Origin: a virus
Length of the DNA: 20,884 bases
Direction: 5' to 3' (one strand)
Virus record (IMG/VR): IMGVR_UViG_3300020472_003009
Span: 1 to 20,884 of that record
Position numbers and translations under genes: made by a program. Positions 1 through 12,273 of the stretch are shown piece after piece (within the stretch, counting starts at the first letter, position 1; every line of letters begins with the position of its first letter). Under the pieces are notes generated by a model. It was given only the letters and a program-made list of their open reading frames with translations, did no database searches and was not told the DNA's origin.

Positions 1-1397
1 GAAGTCGTAAGGGTGTTCAGTATTCGTATGAGTGGTATGCTCCTTCTGCTGGCAGGGATTCGAGTAGCTATAGGGGTCCATTTCGTTTTGTAACTGACGA
101 TCAGATTTGGGATATCTACAGACGTTGCTCCGATGTTAGAGCGTCCGTAGACAGTATTGTGCGTCGAGTTGCTACTTTCGATTGGGAGATAGTTCCTACG
201 ATAGAACCATCTGACGAGCGTTATACTGAAGCTTTACAGATTGCCGAGAATGCCCGTGGGTTCTTAATGCGTCCTAATAAAAACGGTGATACTTGGCAAG
301 AGATAATGACTTCGTTTTTAACTGATACTCTCTGCTTTGATTCGGGGGTATTAGAGTTGGTTACTGATGATGATGGCAACTTACAGGAATTAGTTCCTTT
401 GCGTGGTAGTACGATAACTCCGATTATTGATATTCATGGTCGTTTGTTAGAGTATGAGCAGAACATTTACTCCACGAATAACTTGTTTGGTATTGTTGAA
501 GAGGGTGATGAGCAAAACCCTGTGTTCCGACCAAGTCAGATCATATATTTTAGTTTATTCAAAAACACATCTAACCCTTCTGGTAATCCCTTAATAGAGG
601 CATTGGTTAACGAGGTTATTGCTTTGCTTAGGGCAACTGAGCATGCAATGTTGAACTTAGATGCTGACGAGGTTCCTCCGGGTATTCTTGTACTGGCAGG
701 TATTGCTGGTCGTGCCGCTGAGGAGGCCAAGGCAGACTTACAAAAGCTTAAGGGACAAGACCATAAAATAAGGGTAATGACAACCCCTGATCCTTCTGGC
801 GTAGGTGCAACTTGGTTGGAGCTTAGACGGACCCCCAAAGACATTGAGATGCGTGATATTATTTTAGATATGAGACGTGCTGTATACCGTGTTTTTGGTG
901 TTATGCCTGTAGAGATGGGTATGACTGAACGAATGCCTCTTGCTACTGCTCATGCTCAATTGGATGTGTCTTCTTCTCACTTGGTAACTCCTACTTTAGA
1001 GTTGTTGCAGGCCAAGGTTAATGCCCAAATTATTCCTGCTCTTTTAAATGACTCTTCAAAGTCTGCATTGATTAAATTTGAGTTTGATAGGGAAGCTCGG
1101 TATACCGCACAGGAACAACAACATCTTGCAAGCACGTATCAGACTTATGTTAGAAACGGAATAATGACAAGAAATGAAGCGAGAGAGAAGCTTGGTTTAA
1201 TGCCTGTTACTGGTGGAGACATTCCAACTATGGATTATGCAGGTATGCCCCATGCACTCCATACACTTGGTGAACCACCTCCGGAAGAAATGGACTACAC
1301 TGTTGAGCCTTTTACACCTGAAGAGATTGATGATTTTAAAGAAGAGGAAGAGATAAAAACAGACGATGGAGATGGTGTTGGGTACATAGTAGAATAA
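1..1397 (+). CDS. Portal protein, HK97-like family (5' end cut by window edge)
   Basis: Forms the dodecameric ring at the capsid vertex through which DNA enters and leaves and to which the connectors dock. The frame is open from base 3, so the GTG at 159 is only the first in-window start-like codon and the true start lies upstream. The residues before it (for example DDQIWDIYRRCSDVRASVDS) read as normal portal N-terminal helix. Supporting features of the HK97-like portal family are an N-terminal 'FDWEIVP' segment, a central wing and stem region with 'RRTPKDIEMRDIILDMRRAV', and the C-terminal signature 'NGIMTRNEAREKLGLMPV' followed by GGD. The tail after that is acidic. The next gene, a prohead protease, is where one expects it. 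What is seen is the reading frame and these motifs; the family assignment is recognition from memory, not a search. Confidence 0.92.
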   Translation, partial: SRKGVQYSYEWYAPSAGRDSSSYRGPFRFVTDDQIWDIYRRCSDVRASVDSIVRRVATFDWEIVPTIEPSDERYTEALQIAENARGFLMRPNKNGDTWQEIMTSFLTDTLCFDSGVLELVTDDDGNLQELVPLRGSTITPIIDIHGRLLEYEQNIYSTNNLFGIVEEGDEQNPVFRPSQIIYFSLFKNTSNPSGNPLIEALVNEVIALLRATEHAMLNLDADEVPPGILVLAGIAGRAAEEAKADLQKLKGQDHKIRVMTTPDPSGVGATWLELRRTPKDIEMRDIILDMRRAVYRVFGVMPVEMGMTERMPLATAHAQLDVSSSHLVTPTLELLQAKVNAQIIPALLNDSSKSALIKFEFDREARYTAQEQQHLASTYQTYVRNGIMTRNEAREKLGLMPVTGGDIPTMDYAGMPHALHTLGEPPPEEMDYTVEPFTPEEIDDFKEEEEIKTDDGDGVGYIVE

Positions 1398-1506: not shown

Positions 1507-4194
1507 ATGGACCTTAAATTTTCAAATACAGAACTATTAAAAGACGCTCGCTCTTCTTTTGGCGAATACATGTCTTTAGAAGATTTAAGTGATGCTGACC
1601 GGAGTGTTCTATCCCAAGCAACTCCGGAAAAGTACGATATAGACTACACTTACGTTCCTTTTCCTTCTAAATTTGAGACAAAGAAAGAGCTTGAGTCTAT
1701 GAAAGGGATAATGGCAGACGCTTACTTATCGATGGATTTTATTCGTCGTGCTGATGAGGATATTCTTTCTTTATTCATTATGTGTTGTGAAGAGTTGGGA
1801 ATTGATATATTTTATGACCTTAAGCGGGATTTAGAGCAGACGATGAAGGATTCTTCTGTAGCAATAATGAAGCTTAAGTACTTTTACAATCGTCCTCGAC
1901 CGTATCAGGTTGCAAAGAAAATGGGCGTAGATTTTAATCCTATGGATTCGGTTTCTGCTGAAACACCATCTTATCCATCGGGACATGCTGTTCAGTCGCT
2001 TTTAATTGCTTCGAAATTGGCGAAGGTATTCCCTCATTGCATGAAAAGATTTTTTAAGCTTGCTAATGATATCGCTTGGAGTCGTGTTCAGGCTGGGTAT
2101 CATTTCCCTTCCGATGTCCATTATGGCGAAACGGTCTTTTATAACATGAACGGTGATATGCCAAATGGCATAAAACTATTATCTCATTTGAACTTTCCTA
2201 ATTCTCGGACTATAATAGCAAACGGTAATGATAACGAGGAACCTAAGATGAAAAAAAAGAAAGCAACTGATATCTCTTCTCCGGAGAAGCTAATGCCGGA
2301 ATACCGCTGTTCTCATGTTGAAACAGTTGGAGACAGAAGTACTTATCGACTTCAGGGTAGGTTTCCCGTAAGCTTACCGATCCAGACACTCTCCTCTTTT
2401 AGTGAGGATGGAGAATCATCTGGGGGTTCTAAGTTTTTCTCAATTGAGGGTGTTGCCTCTTCTACATCTGTAGACACTTATGGTACGGAGATGTCTTTAG
2501 ATGCGCTTAAAGGGATGGAAGCCCAAATTAAGACTGGTATTCCTATACTTCCACGACATAATTCTCAGTTTGCTTCTGGGATTGGAGAATGGGACGAAGT
2601 TATCGGCAGAACGATTGGCTCTAGTATAATTTCCGCTTCTAATCCAGCAAATCCAGCCAATAGATCTGAAAAGCAATATGTTCTAAGTGTAAGATCTGTT
2701 TTGTATAACTCTGAACCAAAGACAAGACAATTGATGGAAAGGCTTAGAAGAGCGGAACCAATTGGCCAAAGTGTTGGTGGTTGGTTTGAAGATGTAGATG
2801 TTATTGAGAATAGAGGCGAAGTCGAACGTGTGATTATTAAAGAAGTAATACTTGATCACATTGCAATTACTCGTGCTCCTGCCAATCCTGATAGTAATTC
2901 TTTGCATCAACTTTCAATATTTCGTGATGCGATAAGCGAATTTAAGTCTACTAATTCTAAAAAATCAGTTTTAGATACTATTCTTGAGCGTCGAGCGCTT
3001 CCATTTAAGCCTTTGCCAAAAGCTCCGGACGATACTCCTTGGGCATGGAACACCAAAGCACAAGATGATGTTTTAGATGGAGACAATTGGGATCGTTATA
3101 GACGTGCTCATTTGTATCAAGATATGGATACTAATCCAGATACTAAAGCAGCCTATAAATTGCCCATAGCTAAAATGATTGATGGCGAATTGAAGGTTGT
3201 TCTTCGGGGTGTTCAGGCAGCAATGGCAGCCTTAAACGGCGCTCGTGGCGGTGTTGACGTTCCCGAATCCGATAAAAAAAGAATTTATAGTGTTATATCT
3301 AAATACTATAAGTTATTTGATAAAGACGTACCCCCACTTCGGTCAGGAGATAGAAGCATGGAAACAGAAGAAAACTTAGAGCGTATTTCTATGGAAGAGA
3401 AAGAACGTATGTTAGAAGAAAAAGAACGTATGTTAGAAGAAAAAGAACGTATGCTTGAGGAAAAAGAACGTATGTTAGAGGAATCCAACAGGTCGGATGA
3501 TGTTGCGGAAGAAGAGCGTGCAGAAGAAACCGAAACTGTAGAAGAACGTACAGAAGAAATCAGTGCAGAAGAACCGGACGAAGAACGCAGTGCAGAGTGT
3601 ACTGTAAGTTCTGACGATAGTTCAGATGTATCAAAAGAATCTGATAACGAAGTTGACAAAACTGAACTATCGGTGCAAAATACTGTTATAAATTCTGATA
3701 ACAGTGCAAACCTATCCAATGGAGACAACATGACCGAAAATGATATCGGCAAAATTGCGGCTCTGATAACAGACGCAGTTAAGCCTATAGCTGAACGAAT
3801 GGACGCACTGGAGAATAAATCTACAGTACAGCCCACCGAAGAAGCTACAATTGAAAGAACCGACTCAAAAGAAGTTGCTGAATTAAAAGCACGACTTTTG
3901 GAAAGCGAAAACAAGCTTACACGAATGATCCAACGACCATTGCGTAGTGGAATTCACACCATGCAAACTCGTCGAGGACTTGGTGGGCAGAGCTATTTAG
4001 AGCGAAGCATTATGGATGCTAAGGCCAATGGTTCCACTAACCTTGCAAGCGTTGCAGAACGTGCCAAAGACATTTTAAACAGCGAAAAATTCCCCAAAGA
4101 TGTTAATGTTGTTGAGATGTTAGCACAGGGTCTTCGTGCTGCTGAGATGGATGGTCTTTTAAACAGTTCAATCCCTTCTAACGACTGGAAATAG
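1507..4194 (+). CDS. PAP2-type phosphatase / prohead protease (S78-like) / scaffold fusion
   Basis: This 895-residue protein has four parts. (1) Residues about 60-215 carry all three PAP2 phosphatase motifs: K122-x6-R129-P130, P157-S-G-H160, and S192-R193-x5-H199-x3-D203. (2) Residues about 280-475 look like an S78 prohead protease: a 'LPRHN' catalytic His (H351), 'GQSVGG' with a probable catalytic Ser (S422), and 'AITRAPANP' at 453-461, the usual end of the core. (3) Residues about 510-605 match a domain often found after such proteases ('AYKLP', 'AALNGARGG'). (4) Residues 618-895 are acidic and coiled-coil, with four EEKERML heptads, and look like scaffold. The capsid protein that follows has no long N-terminal delta domain, which fits a scaffold fused to the protease. 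PAP2 enzymes dephosphorylate lipids or small phosphoesters; its substrate here is unknown. No signal peptide or membrane helix is evident. The start at 1507 has GAGG six bases upstream. Confidence 0.88.
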   Translation: MDLKFSNTELLKDARSSFGEYMSLEDLSDADRSVLSQATPEKYDIDYTYVPFPSKFETKKELESMKGIMADAYLSMDFIRRADEDILSLFIMCCEELGIDIFYDLKRDLEQTMKDSSVAIMKLKYFYNRPRPYQVAKKMGVDFNPMDSVSAETPSYPSGHAVQSLLIASKLAKVFPHCMKRFFKLANDIAWSRVQAGYHFPSDVHYGETVFYNMNGDMPNGIKLLSHLNFPNSRTIIANGNDNEEPKMKKKKATDISSPEKLMPEYRCSHVETVGDRSTYRLQGRFPVSLPIQTLSSFSEDGESSGGSKFFSIEGVASSTSVDTYGTEMSLDALKGMEAQIKTGIPILPRHNSQFASGIGEWDEVIGRTIGSSIISASNPANPANRSEKQYVLSVRSVLYNSEPKTRQLMERLRRAEPIGQSVGGWFEDVDVIENRGEVERVIIKEVILDHIAITRAPANPDSNSLHQLSIFRDAISEFKSTNSKKSVLDTILERRALPFKPLPKAPDDTPWAWNTKAQDDVLDGDNWDRYRRAHLYQDMDTNPDTKAAYKLPIAKMIDGELKVVLRGVQAAMAALNGARGGVDVPESDKKRIYSVISKYYKLFDKDVPPLRSGDRSMETEENLERISMEEKERMLEEKERMLEEKERMLEEKERMLEESNRSDDVAEEERAEETETVEERTEEISAEEPDEERSAECTVSSDDSSDVSKESDNEVDKTELSVQNTVINSDNSANLSNGDNMTENDIGKIAALITDAVKPIAERMDALENKSTVQPTEEATIERTDSKEVAELKARLLESENKLTRMIQRPLRSGIHTMQTRRGLGGQSYLERSIMDAKANGSTNLASVAERAKDILNSEKFPKDVNVVEMLAQGLRAAEMDGLLNSSIPSNDWK
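2236..2250 (+). promoter_or_regulatory. Possible internal ribosome binding site and start (M248)
   Basis: GAGGA (2236-2240) lies seven bases before an in-frame ATG (2248-2250). The ATG falls in the Lys-rich linker between the PAP2 and protease domains. Starting here would give a 648-residue protease-scaffold without the phosphatase. Purine-rich codons make such matches fairly common, so this is a candidate only. Confidence 0.35.
3345..3360 (+). promoter_or_regulatory. Possible internal ribosome binding site and start for scaffold (M618)
   Basis: AGGAG (3345-3349) lies eight bases before an in-frame ATG (3358-3360), just after the ARGG domain and before the coiled coil. The product would be a 278-residue acidic scaffold, as lambda makes Nu3 from inside gene C. 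The position at a domain border and the strong motif make this the best of the three internal starts. Confidence 0.5.
3394..3477 (+). repeat. Four tandem 21-base repeats encoding EEKERML heptads
   Basis: Units start at 3394, 3415, 3436 and 3457. They differ only by a few synonymous changes (GAG/GAA, TTA/CTT). Each encodes one heptad with hydrophobic Met and Leu three positions apart from the next turn, typical of a coiled coil. The near-identity at DNA level suggests recent duplication by slippage. Confidence 0.9.
3721..3732 (+). promoter_or_regulatory. Possible second internal start in the scaffold (M742)
   Basis: GGAG (3721-3724) is five bases before an in-frame ATG (3730-3732). The product would be 154 residues, comprising the C-terminal part of the scaffold. 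The spacing is good, but there is no independent evidence of use. Confidence 0.35.
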
Positions 4195-4203
4195 GAGAAA
4201 ATT

Positions 4204-5283
4204 ATGTATAATCAAACTTCATGGGGCAACGCATCTAGTCGTGAACGACTTGAACGTGCCATTAATACTAAAGATGATCAATTGTTTCAAGTCTATATTG
4301 ATAGAGTTGTTCAATTTCTTACTCTTCGTGAGCTTGGATTACAAGCTATTCTTCCCAAAGTACAGGGAAGCGGAGATAAAGTTTATGTTAAGCAACGTTC
4401 TCCAAACACCAATGGTGGTATATGGCAACAGTACTCTGCTGCCGCTGATGAAGGTGTTGCGCCCGTAGTTGATGATGGATCTTATGGCGAAGATAGCTTC
4501 CGCTATCAAACTCTTTCAACTGCTGGTCAGGTAAACCGAAAGGCTATTGCTGTAGGTCGTAGTTACGCAGATGTATTGGCATTGGAAATGGCTGGTGCTG
4601 CCGAAGATTTCTCTAATGCACTTGAGGCTGGATTTATTGGTGGTTGTTTTTCGGTTGATCAAGATGGTGCCAGCGCTGCCAAGTCTGCTCCGCTTGGATT
4701 GCTTACTCTTATCGAAAATGCAGGTGTAAATCAGTGTTTTAGTGCTGGTGGAGAGGGTGCGTTTGCTTCAACTGGTATTACTTCTACTTGGATGGCACCT
4801 TTAACTACTGATGTGTTGGACGCTGCCATTGATGCTGTAAAAGGCTCTTCTGTGCGTTCTGATTTGGCTATTATTGGTTCTTATGCTGGTATTCGTCAGA
4901 TTAATGCAATGCTTCAGGCGCAACAACAGTTTGTAAATGAAGTGGAGATCGCTGCTGGTTTCCGTGTTCGTTCTTACGATGGAATTCCTCTCATCACAAG
5001 TACCGCTGTTTCTGATACTTGTACAACTAACGTAGATGGTGCTGCTCGTGGTCTAGTAAAAGCCCGAACGGGTGGTGCGGCTACCAACTTGTATATCATT
5101 AACAAGCGGCATGTTTACCAAGGCATTCTAACTCCAATGACTGTTATGCCATTGGCAAGAACTACCTCTGCGTATGACAAGTTTGATATGTTTACTGATA
5201 CTACATTGGTTATGGCCAACACCTTTGGTGCTGCTAGAATCAATAACATTTCAACAACTGGTGTTGCTGCGGTTAACGCATAA
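4204..5283 (+). CDS. Major capsid protein (HK97 fold expected)
   Basis: A 359-residue protein placed directly after the protease-scaffold gene, with AGGAG (4193-4197, overlapping the upstream stop) six bases before the ATG. It begins with a short helix rather than a long delta domain. A segment near 'ILPKVQGSGDKVYVKQ' is followed by a Gly-rich loop (E-loop-like) and 'TLSTAGQVNRKAIAVGRSYAD', then a long helix 'VLALEMAGAAEDFSNALEAGF' (spine-helix-like). The C-terminal half is rich in Ala, Gly and Thr and ends in P- and A-domain-like strands. The identity rests on position, size, composition and this layout; the HK97 fold is inference. A strong terminator just downstream fits a highly expressed gene. 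Confidence 0.88.
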   Translation: MYNQTSWGNASSRERLERAINTKDDQLFQVYIDRVVQFLTLRELGLQAILPKVQGSGDKVYVKQRSPNTNGGIWQQYSAAADEGVAPVVDDGSYGEDSFRYQTLSTAGQVNRKAIAVGRSYADVLALEMAGAAEDFSNALEAGFIGGCFSVDQDGASAAKSAPLGLLTLIENAGVNQCFSAGGEGAFASTGITSTWMAPLTTDVLDAAIDAVKGSSVRSDLAIIGSYAGIRQINAMLQAQQQFVNEVEIAAGFRVRSYDGIPLITSTAVSDTCTTNVDGAARGLVKARTGGAATNLYIINKRHVYQGILTPMTVMPLARTTSAYDKFDMFTDTTLVMANTFGAARINNISTTGVAAVNA

Positions 5284-5364: not shown

Positions 5365-5700
5365 ATGGAAAAAAAATATCCTTTTAATTACGTTCTTAGA
5401 CGATATGATAAAATTGCTACGCTTCCTTTTGTTTTGGTTACATACAATGAATCTGTTAGGTCTATACCTTATGATATGAACGGCGTTTCGGCGTGTACGG
5501 CTTTTGTAAAACATAAAACTACAGTTGATAGATATACTAAACTTGGTTGGATCGACGAGACAGCGGCAATGAAGAAGTGTTTTGATAAAAAAACCAAGCC
5601 CAATGTATCAGTTGAAAATAAAAGTGTGGAAAAAGAAAAAAAAGATGGTACAATTGAGTTTAGTTCACCAGCAAAACCAAAGAGACGGACTAAGAAATAA
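5365..5700 (+). CDS. Small head-region protein with Lys-rich tail, function unknown
   Basis: A 111-residue protein I do not recognise. The first 75 or so residues look folded, with 'YPFNYVLRRYDKIATLPFVLVTYNE' strand-like segments, two cysteines (one in 'SACTAF', one in 'KKCFDKK') and a 'YTKLGWIDETAAM' helix. The last 35 residues are highly basic and low in complexity, ending PKRRTKK, which suggests contact with DNA or an acidic partner. GGAG (5353-5356) lies eight bases before the ATG. Its stop overlaps the next start (TAATG), so it is translationally coupled to the gp6-like connector. The position between capsid and connector genes suggests an accessory head or head-completion role (inference). 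Confidence 0.8.
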   Translation: MEKKYPFNYVLRRYDKIATLPFVLVTYNESVRSIPYDMNGVSACTAFVKHKTTVDRYTKLGWIDETAAMKKCFDKKTKPNVSVENKSVEKEKKDGTIEFSSPAKPKRRTKK

Positions 5701-6278
5701 TGGCAACTTTTGCATCTTCAACAGCAATGAAGCGTATGTTAGGAATTCCATCCAGTGTAACCACTCACGACGATGCGATTTCTGATATACTTGATGTTGT
5801 GGATCAAATGGTTCTGGATGAGATCGGCTTAACTGCTGCGACATCGACTTCGTATACAGAAAACATGGACATTACCGACTCTGGTCAAAATGAAATATCG
5901 CTTTCGTATACTCCTGTTCTTACTGTTACGTCTTTTAAGGTTAGCGGTCAGGATCAGACTGTGGACGAAGATTACAAGATAGATAAGAGCATAGGTTTTA
6001 TTAAAAAAATTCCTCTTGCCTCTTTTTTTCCGAGCGGAAGGAATGTTATAGCCATAACCTATACTGCTGGATTTTCATCTGTTCCAGCAGATTTGGTTTA
6101 TGCAGGAAACTTAATCGGTGTTTCTCTTTTTAATCAACAGTCGCACGTTGGATTTGTATCTGAACGTGCAGGGAATTACGCATACAATATGGGAGATGGT
6201 ACAGGGAGTACAATTCCCCGGATTGCAATGCGTATTTTGTCCAAACACAGGCGTTTATTTGCCAGAGGTGCAGTATGA
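5700..6278 (+). CDS. Head-tail connector (gp6-like head completion protein)
   Basis: A 192-residue protein that would form the ring docked under the portal. Features of the HK97 gp6/SPP1 gp15 connector family are an N-terminal helix pair containing 'DDAISDILDVVDQMVLDEIG', a central beta region with 'LSYTPVLTVTSFKV' and 'DEDYKIDKSIGFI', the hallmark 'ITYTAGFSSVPADLVYA', and a C-terminal 'ERAGNYAYNMGDG' and 'LSKHRRLF' region. The start is coupled to the upstream stop, and its own stop overlaps the next ATG (ATGA). It is followed by accessory genes instead of the usual neck protein, which lies 6 kb downstream. Confidence 0.85.
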   Translation: MATFASSTAMKRMLGIPSSVTTHDDAISDILDVVDQMVLDEIGLTAATSTSYTENMDITDSGQNEISLSYTPVLTVTSFKVSGQDQTVDEDYKIDKSIGFIKKIPLASFFPSGRNVIAITYTAGFSSVPADLVYAGNLIGVSLFNQQSHVGFVSERAGNYAYNMGDGTGSTIPRIAMRILSKHRRLFARGAV

Positions 6279-8382: not shown

Positions 8383-9393
8383 ATGGCGAAGGTGCTTATT
8401 ACGGGTGGTGCAGGATTTATTGGTCATCATTTAGTAGAGTTTTTATTACAGAATACTGATCACGATATTGTTATATTAGATCGTTTGGATTTAAGTGGAA
8501 GTCTTTCTCGTGTTAAACACGTTGTAGATCAAGATCCATCTTATATCGGTCGAGTGGATTTTGTTTGGCATGATTTAAAAGCGGCAATAAGTGAGTTTGT
8601 TGCGAACCAATTGGGTGAAGTAGAATATATTTTGCATCTCGCTGCTGGTTCTCATGTAGATAGGAGCATTACTCATCCAATGGAGTTTGTTTTAGACAAT
8701 GTAGTTGGTACTGCTAATCTACTGGACTATTGTCGAACGAAGCTCAAAAGTTCTCTTAAGTTTTTCCTTTACTTTTCTACTGATGAGGTTTTTGGTACGG
8801 CTCCGGAAGGAGTATTATACAAAGAATGGGATCGTTATGATAGCGGAAACCCTTACAGTGCATCTAAGGCTGGCGCTGAAGAATTATGTATAGCTTATGC
8901 TAATACTTATAGTTTACCAATACATGTAACTCACACCATGAATGTTATAGGAGCTAGGCAGCACCCTGAAAAATTCCTTCCTTTGGCTATCAGTAAGGTT
9001 ATGAAAGGTGAGAAGATATATATCCATTCTTCACCCGATTTGACCGTTTCTGGAAGTCGTTTTTATATTGACGTAAAAGATGTATGTAGTGCTGTTTCTT
9101 TTCTTATGAAACACTGTGTGGATAATGATATTCGCACTGATAAATTTAATATCGTAGGATCTCGTGAGATATCTAATTTAGAATTAGCTCAAATGATAGC
9201 AAAAGAGATGGGTAAAGACCTTATTTACGAGATGGTAGATTTCCATTCTTCTCGTCCCGGTCATGATTTGCGATATTCTCTTTGCGGAGAAAAAATGAAA
9301 AATTTAGGGTGGGAACCACATAGTATAGAGCAAAGAATAAAAGACTTTGTTAAGTGGTATACAGAACCTGCAAATAGCGGTTGGTTATTTTAA
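8383..9393 (+). CDS. NAD-dependent nucleotide-sugar 4,6-dehydratase (dTDP-glucose dehydratase-like)
   Basis: A 336-residue extended short-chain dehydrogenase. The NAD-binding GGAGFIG is at residues 8-14, 'LAAGSHVDRSITHP' at 86-99, and the dehydratase signature 'STDEVFG' at 132-138 supplies the Thr, Asp and Glu used in 4,6-dehydration. The Tyr-x3-Lys pair is Y158 and K162, and the substrate-site 'RPGHDLRY' is at 291-298. The length is close to RmlB (about 350-360). The expected product is a 4-keto-6-deoxy nucleotide sugar; whether the base is dTDP, GDP or UDP cannot be fixed here. AGGAG (8370-8374) precedes the start. No partner sugar genes (RmlA, C, D types) are in the window, so host enzymes or genes elsewhere must supply and finish the sugar. 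The glycosyltransferase next door is the likely user of the product. Confidence 0.9.
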   Translation: MAKVLITGGAGFIGHHLVEFLLQNTDHDIVILDRLDLSGSLSRVKHVVDQDPSYIGRVDFVWHDLKAAISEFVANQLGEVEYILHLAAGSHVDRSITHPMEFVLDNVVGTANLLDYCRTKLKSSLKFFLYFSTDEVFGTAPEGVLYKEWDRYDSGNPYSASKAGAEELCIAYANTYSLPIHVTHTMNVIGARQHPEKFLPLAISKVMKGEKIYIHSSPDLTVSGSRFYIDVKDVCSAVSFLMKHCVDNDIRTDKFNIVGSREISNLELAQMIAKEMGKDLIYEMVDFHSSRPGHDLRYSLCGEKMKNLGWEPHSIEQRIKDFVKWYTEPANSGWLF

Positions 9394-9414: not shown

Positions 9415-12273
9415 ATGAAATCTTATACTTATTGTGTAATTGTACCTACATGTATGTTGCCCCATGTAGAGGATTCTTTTGTTCGTTGGATTGAGCACGC
9501 TGAAGAAAACACTCTTTTTCTTCTAAGCATAAACCCCTTAGATATGGAGCAAGCCAAAGACACTTTTGAAAAATGTAAGTTGTTAGAGGACTATTGCAAA
9601 AAACGGTACAATGTAAAAAACGTTGACTTTGAATATTTATGGTCTGATGGTCCTATTGGATTTGGACCAGCGGTAAACAAAGGGTGCGACCACATTAGGG
9701 AAAATTATGAAGTTACTGGCTCCATTATTATCCTTAATGACGATGTTTCAGTAATGTCTGATTGGCAGCCGAATTTAGTAGGTGGATTATATTCTGATGA
9801 ATATATGACCTCTCGTACACATCAAGACAATAAAACCATAAGTAAAGACCTAATTCCATTTAAAATAGGAATGGCCGGACCAATGTCGGATAAGGTTGGT
9901 GGGGCGCAATTAATTGAAAGACCAAGTCAGTACTCACCAGAGCAATTTGCTGAAATGGTCAAAAAAGAAGAAGTTAACTCGGTAATCTTAGAGTCGTTTA
10001 TTTCGGGGTTTTGCATGGCGCTAACACCTGAATTCTTCTCGGAGATGCTTGAAAAAGACGGTTTTCTTTTTGACCCCATCTACAAGGTTGGTGGATTTGA
10101 AGATAACGACCTTTGTGTAAGAGCGCTTATGAATGGATATATTTCTGTTAAAGTTGGTCGGTGTTGGCTTCCTCATAAATGCAGCCAAACAATAAAAGAT
10201 ATGGAAAACATTTATGGAGGTCTTCAGAACCATTCTATCTTCTTAGACAGGTGGAAATCCTTCACTCAGAGAGATCAAAAAGTCATTGGAGCATACCGTG
10301 TATCCATAAAGAATATTAACAATCTTCTTCAGTTTCAATCTTCTCTAATTCGGGCCATACCCTTTGTTGATGGGTTGTCTATTATTTTGACGAATAACCC
10401 TGCGGAAAGTTTAGAGTCTTATGATAGAAATATGTTTTCTTCTTTAGCTGACCGTGACAAGAAGTTCCTAAAGTCCTGTTTAGACCTTAAAAGCCTTAAA
10501 GACCTTCAAAGAACTATGAAAAAGTGGATAAAACAGTTGTTTTTGCATCCACAGGTTAACAAAAAGATACCCATTAAAGTTGAATGTTGGGATAAAGAGT
10601 TTAATGAGAGAAATGAAAGAAATAGAAATTATGAAATGGCTGTTGAAATGGGTGCTGATTGGGTCATTTCTATTGATGCTGATGAAATAATAGAAGATCG
10701 AATTACTCCTGAGTTTTTTCAGTCTTTGATTAAACATCCTAATCCTCTTATATCTGCATTTGTTTTTGGATGGCTAAATCATTACGAATCTGGTTCTTTG
10801 GTTCGCCAAGATCGTCCTTTTTCAGACGGTTATTACTCTGGAATGGTTGGTCCACGGTTGTTTAGGATTTGGAATAAAAAACACCTTCCCATATTTGCTG
10901 GTACAAGCATTGGTTTACATTGTGGAAACAGTCCTGACTATGGTGCAACTTCGTTAAAGATTGCATCCTTTAGGTTTCGTCACTTGTCCATGCTTCGTCA
11001 TATAGATCGGGTTGCCAAGTCACACATGTATAATGCTTTAGACCAAGAGAAGAACAAACAGCTTCTTGGTAGCAACAATTATCATCATATTAAAAGATGT
11101 GAAAACGTAAATGTTGACATATACATGCCCAACAATGGAATAGGTGGATTTACTTTAGGTTACGAAGAGGAGAAACCATTTTTACTATCTCTTAGGTTTG
11201 AAAGTTATCATGGAATTTGTGATGTAAAGGTTTTCAACTGGACAGGTGAATGGGAAGATAGTGATAAAGAATGGTTGAGCATTCCTTGGTCTGAATTTCC
11301 TACCCAAGAAGAGTTTTCATCAAAGTACAAAACTGGACCGAATTGGGACGTTGCAGTAGCAGGAAAGGCATTTAGTGTTGATTTTATCCATTATAAATTC
11401 AATGAAGAAGAGGGTCTTGCTGGTTGTAGAAATGCTGCGTTAGATCGTATTAGAGAACTCAATACAGGTGGGATACATTGGGCATTTTATCTTGATCCGG
11501 ACGAAGGGCACCATGCTGTTCCAGAACTTATGTCTGACTCTTGCATTAGAAGGATGGCAGAGTCTCCGGGTGTTTGGTCGTTCTTGTTTAATTTTGTTAA
11601 TCCTGTGCGGTTAAATACTGGTGAGATGTATGATAGTATGTCTCAGTCAATGCGCCTTTTTACTATTGATCCAAATGTAAATCTTAGATTTTATGGTGTT
11701 GTTCATGAAACACTTGAACTATCGATGCACGATGCAATAAAAAGAGGTCATGCTGGAAATGTTAGGGTTTGTCCAAACAAATGGATTAATGGTGGATTAA
11801 GAGGAAGTCCGGAGCAAATAGTTGCAAAATTAACAAAATATCAAAAAGGATTAGTTCAATTGTTAACGGATAATCCTTTATCAGGTGCAGCATGGACTAG
11901 CTTAGGACTTACATACTTAAATGATGCAGACCAAAGAAATGCAGAACTTTGTTTTGAAAGGGCATGTTTATCGGGAAAGGGCGCCTACCTTCCACATCAA
12001 GAACTTGCATTTTTGTACATGCGTAGAGCAAAAGGGCTTTTAGCTAAAGCATATAATTGCGCTAACAATGTTGAAGCTTTGACCGAAAGATACAAAAAAA
12101 TAGGTCGGTTCATAAAAGATGAAATAGGAGAATTTCCTCGTGTATTTACCAAGGGAGTTTGTGTCTCGGAACAATTTGAGCTTCCTTCTTTTCCTTATGA
12201 TATAGTATTAAATGGAAATGGAGATTTAGATGTTGAAGGTGAAGAAGAGGATACTGGGGAAAAAGAGAGTTGA
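9415..12273 (+). CDS. Large multi-domain glycosyltransferase with TPR-like C-terminus
   Basis: A 952-residue protein with three glycosyltransferase family 2 (GT-A) like segments. Segment 1 (about 1-280): 'YCVIVPT' start, a DxD-like 'ILNDDVSV' at 106-113 and 'GGFEDNDLCVRA' at 226-237, a classic acid-base region. Segment 2 (about 315-540): 'LSIILTNNPAESL', then 'NRNYEMAVEMGADWVISID' followed by ADE (DxD near 419-424). Segment 3 (about 650-800): 'GCRNAALDRI', 'FYLDPDEGH' at 691-699 and 'FYGVVHETLE' at 759-768. Residues about 820-885 look like TPR repeats ('AAWTSLGLTYLNDADQRNAE'). A single gene with several GT domains could build a short oligosaccharide by itself. Its target may be a virion protein or a host surface polymer; the setting inside the structural operon favours the virion (inference). 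AGAGG (9402-9406) is its ribosome binding site, and its 3' end overlaps the neck gene by 44 bases. Confidence 0.88.
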   Translation: MKSYTYCVIVPTCMLPHVEDSFVRWIEHAEENTLFLLSINPLDMEQAKDTFEKCKLLEDYCKKRYNVKNVDFEYLWSDGPIGFGPAVNKGCDHIRENYEVTGSIIILNDDVSVMSDWQPNLVGGLYSDEYMTSRTHQDNKTISKDLIPFKIGMAGPMSDKVGGAQLIERPSQYSPEQFAEMVKKEEVNSVILESFISGFCMALTPEFFSEMLEKDGFLFDPIYKVGGFEDNDLCVRALMNGYISVKVGRCWLPHKCSQTIKDMENIYGGLQNHSIFLDRWKSFTQRDQKVIGAYRVSIKNINNLLQFQSSLIRAIPFVDGLSIILTNNPAESLESYDRNMFSSLADRDKKFLKSCLDLKSLKDLQRTMKKWIKQLFLHPQVNKKIPIKVECWDKEFNERNERNRNYEMAVEMGADWVISIDADEIIEDRITPEFFQSLIKHPNPLISAFVFGWLNHYESGSLVRQDRPFSDGYYSGMVGPRLFRIWNKKHLPIFAGTSIGLHCGNSPDYGATSLKIASFRFRHLSMLRHIDRVAKSHMYNALDQEKNKQLLGSNNYHHIKRCENVNVDIYMPNNGIGGFTLGYEEEKPFLLSLRFESYHGICDVKVFNWTGEWEDSDKEWLSIPWSEFPTQEEFSSKYKTGPNWDVAVAGKAFSVDFIHYKFNEEEGLAGCRNAALDRIRELNTGGIHWAFYLDPDEGHHAVPELMSDSCIRRMAESPGVWSFLFNFVNPVRLNTGEMYDSMSQSMRLFTIDPNVNLRFYGVVHETLELSMHDAIKRGHAGNVRVCPNKWINGGLRGSPEQIVAKLTKYQKGLVQLLTDNPLSGAAWTSLGLTYLNDADQRNAELCFERACLSGKGAYLPHQELAFLYMRRAKGLLAKAYNCANNVEALTERYKKIGRFIKDEIGEFPRVFTKGVCVSEQFELPSFPYDIVLNGNGDLDVEGEEEDTGEKES

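Follow-up and report, generated by a model that had tools for sequence, protein, structure and literature searches.

Between its portal and major capsid genes, an uncultivated bacterial virus carries a single open reading frame (ORF) that begins as a PAP2-type phosphatase and appears to continue as a prohead protease with a scaffold-like tail (Table 1), which raises the question of what a phosphatase is doing on a protein of head assembly. We addressed it in the 20,884-base virus record that holds this ORF, analysed over its whole length and hereafter called the window. A preliminary description of the sequence had claimed a complete PAP2 active site fused to a capsid maturation protease-scaffold protein, and had guessed that the phosphatase might be packaged in the prohead, act in the host after ejection or trim a phosphorylated capsid partner. 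Sequence comparison shows that the PAP2 module of this ORF is real, recurs on phage head proteins and has an apparently intact active site; it is most likely a virion cargo.

Table 1. Features of the window and the evidence for each.
Feature	Position	Strand	Evidence
Portal protein	3..1397	+	PF04860, E 3.5e-27
Whole ORF, 895 aa: PAP2 - prohead protease - phage-head domain - scaffold-like tail	1507..4194	+	Uninterrupted frame; start ATG, AGGA upstream
PAP2 (class A acid phosphatase-like) domain	1624..2154 (~residues 40-216)	+	PF01569 E 3.3e-12; AlphaFold2 model; Foldseek
Motif 1, K124-x6-R131(-P132)	1876..1899	+	K124 and R131 invariant in 98/98 viral domains
Motif 2, P157-S158-G159-H160	1975..1986	+	Invariant in 98/98 viral domains
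Motif 3, S192-R193 ... H199 ... D203	2080..2115	+	R193, H199, D203 invariant in 98/98
In-frame ATG at PAP2/protease junction, candidate unfused-protease start	2248..2250	+	GAGGA upstream
Prohead protease core (S78/HK97-like)	2398..2907	+	Weak Pfam S78; HK97 gp4 alignment
Candidate catalytic His351	2557-2559	+	Invariant in 27 aligned sequences; HK97 gp4 alignment
Candidate catalytic Ser422	2770-2772	+	Invariant in 27 aligned sequences; HK97 gp4 alignment
Recurrent phage-head domain (W..RF.AHLY ... YKLP ... LNGARGGV)	3013..3351	+	tblastn
Candidate start, ATG 3358	3358	+	AGGAGA, dG -7.4; strongest internal Shine-Dalgarno-like site in the ORF
Scaffold-like acidic/coiled-coil tail	3358..4194	+	Composition; AGGAGA before ATG 3358
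Second candidate scaffold start (MTENDIG...)	3730..3732	+	Met equivalent in L040, L052, L157, L162, L169
Major capsid protein	4204..5283	+	phrog_25898, E 3.7e-5; relatives L041-L055
Head-tail adaptor gene	5700-6278		
Tape measure gene	from 15325 onward		

The N-terminal domain retains a complete PAP2 active site

Pfam searches with the whole protein returned PAP2 (PF01569) over residues 122-207 (E 2.6e-11, 43.8 bits), and the segment 1507-2250 alone scored 46.7 bits (E 3.3e-12), both well above the family cut-off of 27.2 bits. The active site is complete where the preliminary description had placed it, with PSGH at residues 157-160 and S192-R193, H199 and D203 in the third motif; by homology, H199 would be the nucleophile. 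One detail of that description had to be corrected. The window contains two overlapping K-x6-RP matches, K122-x6-R129-P130 and K124-x6-R131-P132, and the residue originally chosen, K122, is a lysine in just 40 of 98 aligned viral domains, whereas K124 and R131 are found in all of them; as the K-x6-RP motif of 7f18, a solved acid phosphatase, also aligns with K124/R131, we take this pair as the true motif. Counted from R131-P132, the distance to PSGH is 24 residues, and not 26. Every one of the eight active-site residues is retained in the 98 viral domains. For motifs 1 and 2 this conservation is partly circular, since both lie within the search patterns (which contained KxFYNRPRP and TP[SA][YF]PSGH), and R193, H199 and D203 were absent from every pattern. 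Such conservation of catalytic residues across diverse contexts argues that the domain is an enzyme.

Among solved structures, the nearest sequences to the window domain are acid phosphatases, with 7f18 as the best match (E 1e-12). An AlphaFold2 model computed from 20 family members (mean pLDDT 75.7, core mostly 80-96, unreliable over the first 29 and last 23 residues) predicts a helical bundle around the PAP2 motifs, and its top Foldseek matches were 7f17/7f18, PhoN and the E. blattae acid phosphatase; against 7f17, E was 1.1e-5 and the probability 1.00, with a TM of only ~0.5-0.6. The predicted fold is therefore closest to that of soluble class A acid phosphatases. None of the outcomes named beforehand as refuting the claim was observed, the profile match being strong, the fold as just described and the catalytic residues kept in relatives. 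Vanadium-dependent haloperoxidases belong to the same superfamily and have ligand residues in common with it, and Foldseek did list a bacterial iodoperoxidase (4cit, 4usz); it matched less well than the acid phosphatases, which also provide the best sequence matches, and the domain is as short as an acid phosphatase, so that we rejected a haloperoxidase as very improbable.

Consistent with the soluble type suggested at the outset, no transmembrane segment is evident (maximum 19-residue hydropathy 1.34), nor is a signal peptide, the N-terminus MDLKFSNTELLKDARSS being polar and without a hydrophobic segment. Class A acid phosphatases are secreted, stand-alone enzymes with an N-terminal signal peptide. 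The window domain has in common with these non-specific phosphatases (PhoN, PhoC, E. blattae, P. aeruginosa 7f17/7f18) the K-x6-RP / PSGH / SR-x5-H-x3-D motifs and the helical fold, and differs from them in having no evident signal peptide and in sitting on a phage head protein.

The partner resembles HK97-type prohead proteases

The claim of a fusion to a protease-scaffold protein held as far as the single 895-residue frame is concerned, whereas its protease half is more weakly supported. The window scores below the Pfam cut-off for S78 (E 0.031, 14.8 bits against 21), while 22 of 27 members of its protease family reach E 0.1 or lower, the strongest at 3.7e-5, and five match a PHROG head maturation protease. 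Alignment with HK97 gp4 by hhalign (E 0.022) superposed His351 and Ser422 on a His and a Ser of that protein, pairing ILPRHN with FFNHKT and GQSVGG with GMSVGF. A PDB fold search with the protease model gave no significant match, so the model lends no support. Downstream, tblastn linked the recurrent phage-head domain to Streptomyces phage proteins annotated as capsid maturation protease/MuF fusions and to the annotated head maturation protease of Thermus phage Riverbug; Pfam found no MuF domain in ORF 1507-4194. The scaffold-like tail contains a 21-nt tandem repeat at 3394-3483.

Taken with its position between portal and capsid genes, its candidate His/Ser pair, its scaffold-like tail and a candidate internal start, this part of the ORF is organised as in HK97-type (S78) prohead proteases, and differs from them by the extra N-terminal enzyme domain.

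The fusion recurs and the PAP2 module is optional

PAP2 and the same protease family are joined in one ORF in L157 (841 aa), L169/L056 (1104 aa) and L162 (902 aa), the last with PAP2 in second place; the L169/L056 ORF also contains a segment similar to the N-terminal domain of L040. In three other contigs (L017, L032, L132), PAP2 is carried at a comparable head position by an unrelated 540-aa protein, which in L017 lies between terminase/portal-like and capsid-like genes (the terminase identified by Pfam, the portal and capsid read from position alone). A common origin of this partner with the window protease was considered and dropped, as the comparison gave no support, and we regard the partner as a putative protease only. 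In a tree of 145 domains, a quick one with several long branches, the window clusters with L157, L162, L169 and the multidomain L057 (SH-aLRT 96), and L017/L032/L132 cluster apart from these (SH-aLRT 99), from which at least two fusion events are likely.

These relatives bear on whether the window fusion could have arisen by misassembly or by an accidental join, a suspicion fed by its being a single contig and by slight differences in composition among the parts of ORF 1507-4194. The presence of PAP2 with the same protease family in L157, L169 and L162, which are separate contigs, contradicts this reading, and a codon use of the PAP2 part similar to that of the remainder of the window also speaks against it, leaving it scarcely credible. 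The fusion is real and recurrent.

Conservation is nevertheless far from general on the protease side. PAP2 is present in just 3 among the 69 protease relatives listed; in 12 of the 69, the 3 with PAP2 included, the core is preceded by over 200 residues. In L040, whose protease part is 43% identical, a DUF5824-like domain replaces PAP2; this call was made by eye from similarity to L036, assigned to DUF5824 by Pfam. L158 has DUF5824 by Pfam. Since PAP2 is missing from most protease relatives and a DUF5824-like domain can take its N-terminal place, PAP2 is an optional module, dispensable for protease function. A part in head assembly, whether by dephosphorylating a capsid or scaffold protein or as an inert module for folding or spacing, would agree with its location in a protease-scaffold protein and is improbable on two counts, the scarcity of PAP2 among the 69 relatives listed and the existence of free-standing PAP2 versions in viral contigs. 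The retained catalytic residues speak against an inert spacer, and the trimming of a phosphorylated capsid partner, as first guessed, finds no support when most relatives of the same protease are without PAP2.

Candidate internal starts

In-frame ATGs at the domain junction are found in the window and also in L157, L162, L017, L032 and L132, with another at the N-domain/protease junction of L040. Ranked by Shine-Dalgarno pairing among all in-frame ATGs of each ORF, the junction ATG comes first in L162 (1/39), L132 (1/13) and L040 (1/21), second in L017 (2/13), fourth in L157 (4/27) and about seventh in the window (~7/34), and is weak in L032. Unfused protease relatives begin near the position of this ATG, and the sequence suggests that unfused protease is made from 2248 as well. 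At the second scaffold start, the equivalent methionines of the relatives rank third or fourth among in-frame starts or ATGs, and the Shine-Dalgarno at the corresponding site of L041 is weak. Together, the starts at 2248, 3358 and 3730 suggest nested products, so that the gene may yield more than the fusion. In phage lambda, C/Nu3 combines a prohead protease with a C-terminal scaffold and a nested scaffold product, and by analogy the internal starts are suggestive of a similar arrangement.

PAP2 relatives are numerous in viral contigs

Viral contigs were scanned in rounds that yielded L002-L008, then L009-L039 and then at least 600 matched stretches; 596 of the 600 matches listed encode a PAP2 relative, and the family totals over 600 stretches in viral contigs. 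A tblastn search of 50,697 phage records returned only distant or host-contaminant matches and no clear member, and PHROGs has no family matching the domain. BFVD gave two strong, unnamed viral fold matches, so the fold is not wholly new to public viral proteins. Among the candidates discarded, those of Acinetobacter phage MD-2021a (H1, H2) are host DNA lying among bacterial housekeeping genes, and the fecal match MT835844 (H3) is a hydrophobic PAP2 amid bacterial-looking genes. Nothing relevant was found in the literature on PAP2 with a prohead protease.

Many members lie distant from head genes (G026, G039, G047, G048). In L057 (2319-7445), a 1708-aa protein combines a polyA-polymerase head domain, PAP2 and the catalytic core of a eukaryotic-type topoisomerase I. 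As separate observations, a 2344-aa protein of L131 (3043-10077) carries HNH, PAP2 and NADPH-dependent FMN reductase domains, and nine contigs (L022-L028, L030, L031) have a near-identical 232-aa PAP2 ORF, probably from one widespread virus.

T4-like relatives and capsid-targeting leaders

A T4-like block of S77 protease, scaffold and gp23 genes lies directly upstream of PAP2 in L006/L011 and is separated from it by one ORF in L010. The S77 protease of L010 (1962-3815) itself has an intein-like insert (PF14890 E 5e-8, slightly below the cut-off) and a weak LAGLIDADG match. PAP2 lies within 5.5 kb of gp23 on the same strand in five of the nine records that have gp23, only a modest excess over random placement (p 0.03, or 0.07 in records over 20 kb).

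Phage T4 packages and ejects proteins by means of capsid-targeting leaders, N-terminal and ending in (L/I)xE, and the leader pattern was built from the rules in PMC9026906. In its strict form, a pattern set post hoc and counted over non-independent contigs, many of them related, it was found in 32 of the 2257 ORFs that accompany PAP2 in its loci; the corresponding counts were 5 of 5047 for bacterial ORFs and 0 of 2906 for ORFs from protease loci. Three leader-bearing genes stand directly 5' of PAP2 in L116, and such genes include HAD-type phosphatase-like and Zeta-toxin-like kinase genes. The kinases of L076 (2228-2932) and L084 (5012-5713; PF06414 E 4.7e-9) begin with the T4-type leader-like MIKLKDILNE. 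As a hallmark of PAP2 itself the strict leader failed, fitting only L016 among 97 PAP2 ORFs; a related leader occurs in 15 of the 97, mostly without the Glu10 required for T4-type processing, and the window PAP2 has no T4-type leader.

A candidate cargo of the prohead

We favour, with a probability of roughly one half (0.52), the reading in which the soluble class A-type PAP2 phosphatase is a cargo that the prohead protease-scaffold protein may or may not carry. The scaffold part would bring the fused protein into the prohead during head assembly, and the protease would cut the core proteins and itself, leaving free phosphatase within the head; the enzyme would then exit with the DNA into a new host and hydrolyse small phosphate esters there, most likely nucleotides. 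The junction start would add ordinary protease, so that the fused form could be a minority. Because further uncultivated viruses have the fusion as well, the phosphatase probably travels in the virion and is delivered to the host, and packaging followed by action after ejection appears the best supported of the roles first guessed. We counted for the cargo reading the PAP2 profile and fold, the retained active site, the two fusion lineages, the optional nature of the module, the PAP2 genes that follow gp23, the leader-bearing neighbours, the multidomain L057 protein and the junction ATGs, and against it the members away from head genes, the mostly incomplete leaders of PAP2 itself, the post hoc choice of leader and SNase patterns on related contigs, the modest excess near gp23, a window protease below the Pfam cut-off and the putative status of the L017-type protease.

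The natural substrates of class A acid phosphatases are small phosphomonoesters. Genes for SNase-type nucleases lie within about 3 kb of PAP2 in G015, G032, G035, G039 and G043, that is, in 5 of the 9 records having one (p 3.5e-4 against random placement, for a pattern seen post hoc), hinting at nucleotides as the substrate. The same proximity fits nucleic acid breakdown, and would also suit an enzyme at work in the producing cell at a late stage, where it would salvage phosphate or nucleotides as host DNA is degraded, or attack lipid phosphates; the fusion would then serve only co-expression, and any packaging would be incidental. Class A acid phosphatases do act on nucleotides, and many PAP2 relatives are free-standing and away from the head cluster; a late role leaves unexplained two independent fusions to head proteins and the placement beside leader genes, and we hold it possible, if doubtful.

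Enzyme packaging and ejection are well studied in few phages, such as T4 with its Alt and internal proteins. These T4 enzymes, packaged in the prohead and then ejected (PMC9026906), are the model for the cargo reading; the window differs from T4 in fusing the cargo to the protease and having no leader, and the T4 cargo, which comprises an ADP-ribosyltransferase and an inhibitor of restriction, includes no phosphatase. Polyvalent proteins and MuF fusions, in which enzyme domains joined to virion proteins are proposed to be delivered effectors (Iyer et al. 2017, PMC5512222), likewise have an enzyme domain and a virion protein in one polypeptide, with MuF and not a prohead protease as the carrier; the main text of that paper contains neither 'PAP2' nor 'phosphatase'.

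If the cargo reading is true, the prohead protease itself would ferry cargo, in an N-terminal slot whose contents can be exchanged, and phosphatases become one more kind of packaged cargo. More than 600 viral-contig stretches against no clear member in the phage records searched would suggest a large class of delivered enzymes overlooked by culture-based work. It is a speculative and rather unlikely extension that PAP2 phosphatases at large are widespread, hitherto unnamed virion-delivered effectors of uncultivated phages, loaded by protease fusion or capsid-targeting leaders and destroying phosphate esters of the host, such as its signalling nucleotides, within minutes of the onset of infection.

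Other features of the locus

Just 5' of ORF 1507-4194, an AT-rich ATTAA repeat occupies 1439-1480. Between the head-tail adaptor and tail genes, the window encodes a nucleotide-sugar epimerase (8383-9393; phrog_540, E 3.5e-91) and, at 9415-12273, a protein of 952 aa that weakly matches glycosyltransferases; an epimerase-like ORF is found at a comparable position in L157 (5991-6998).
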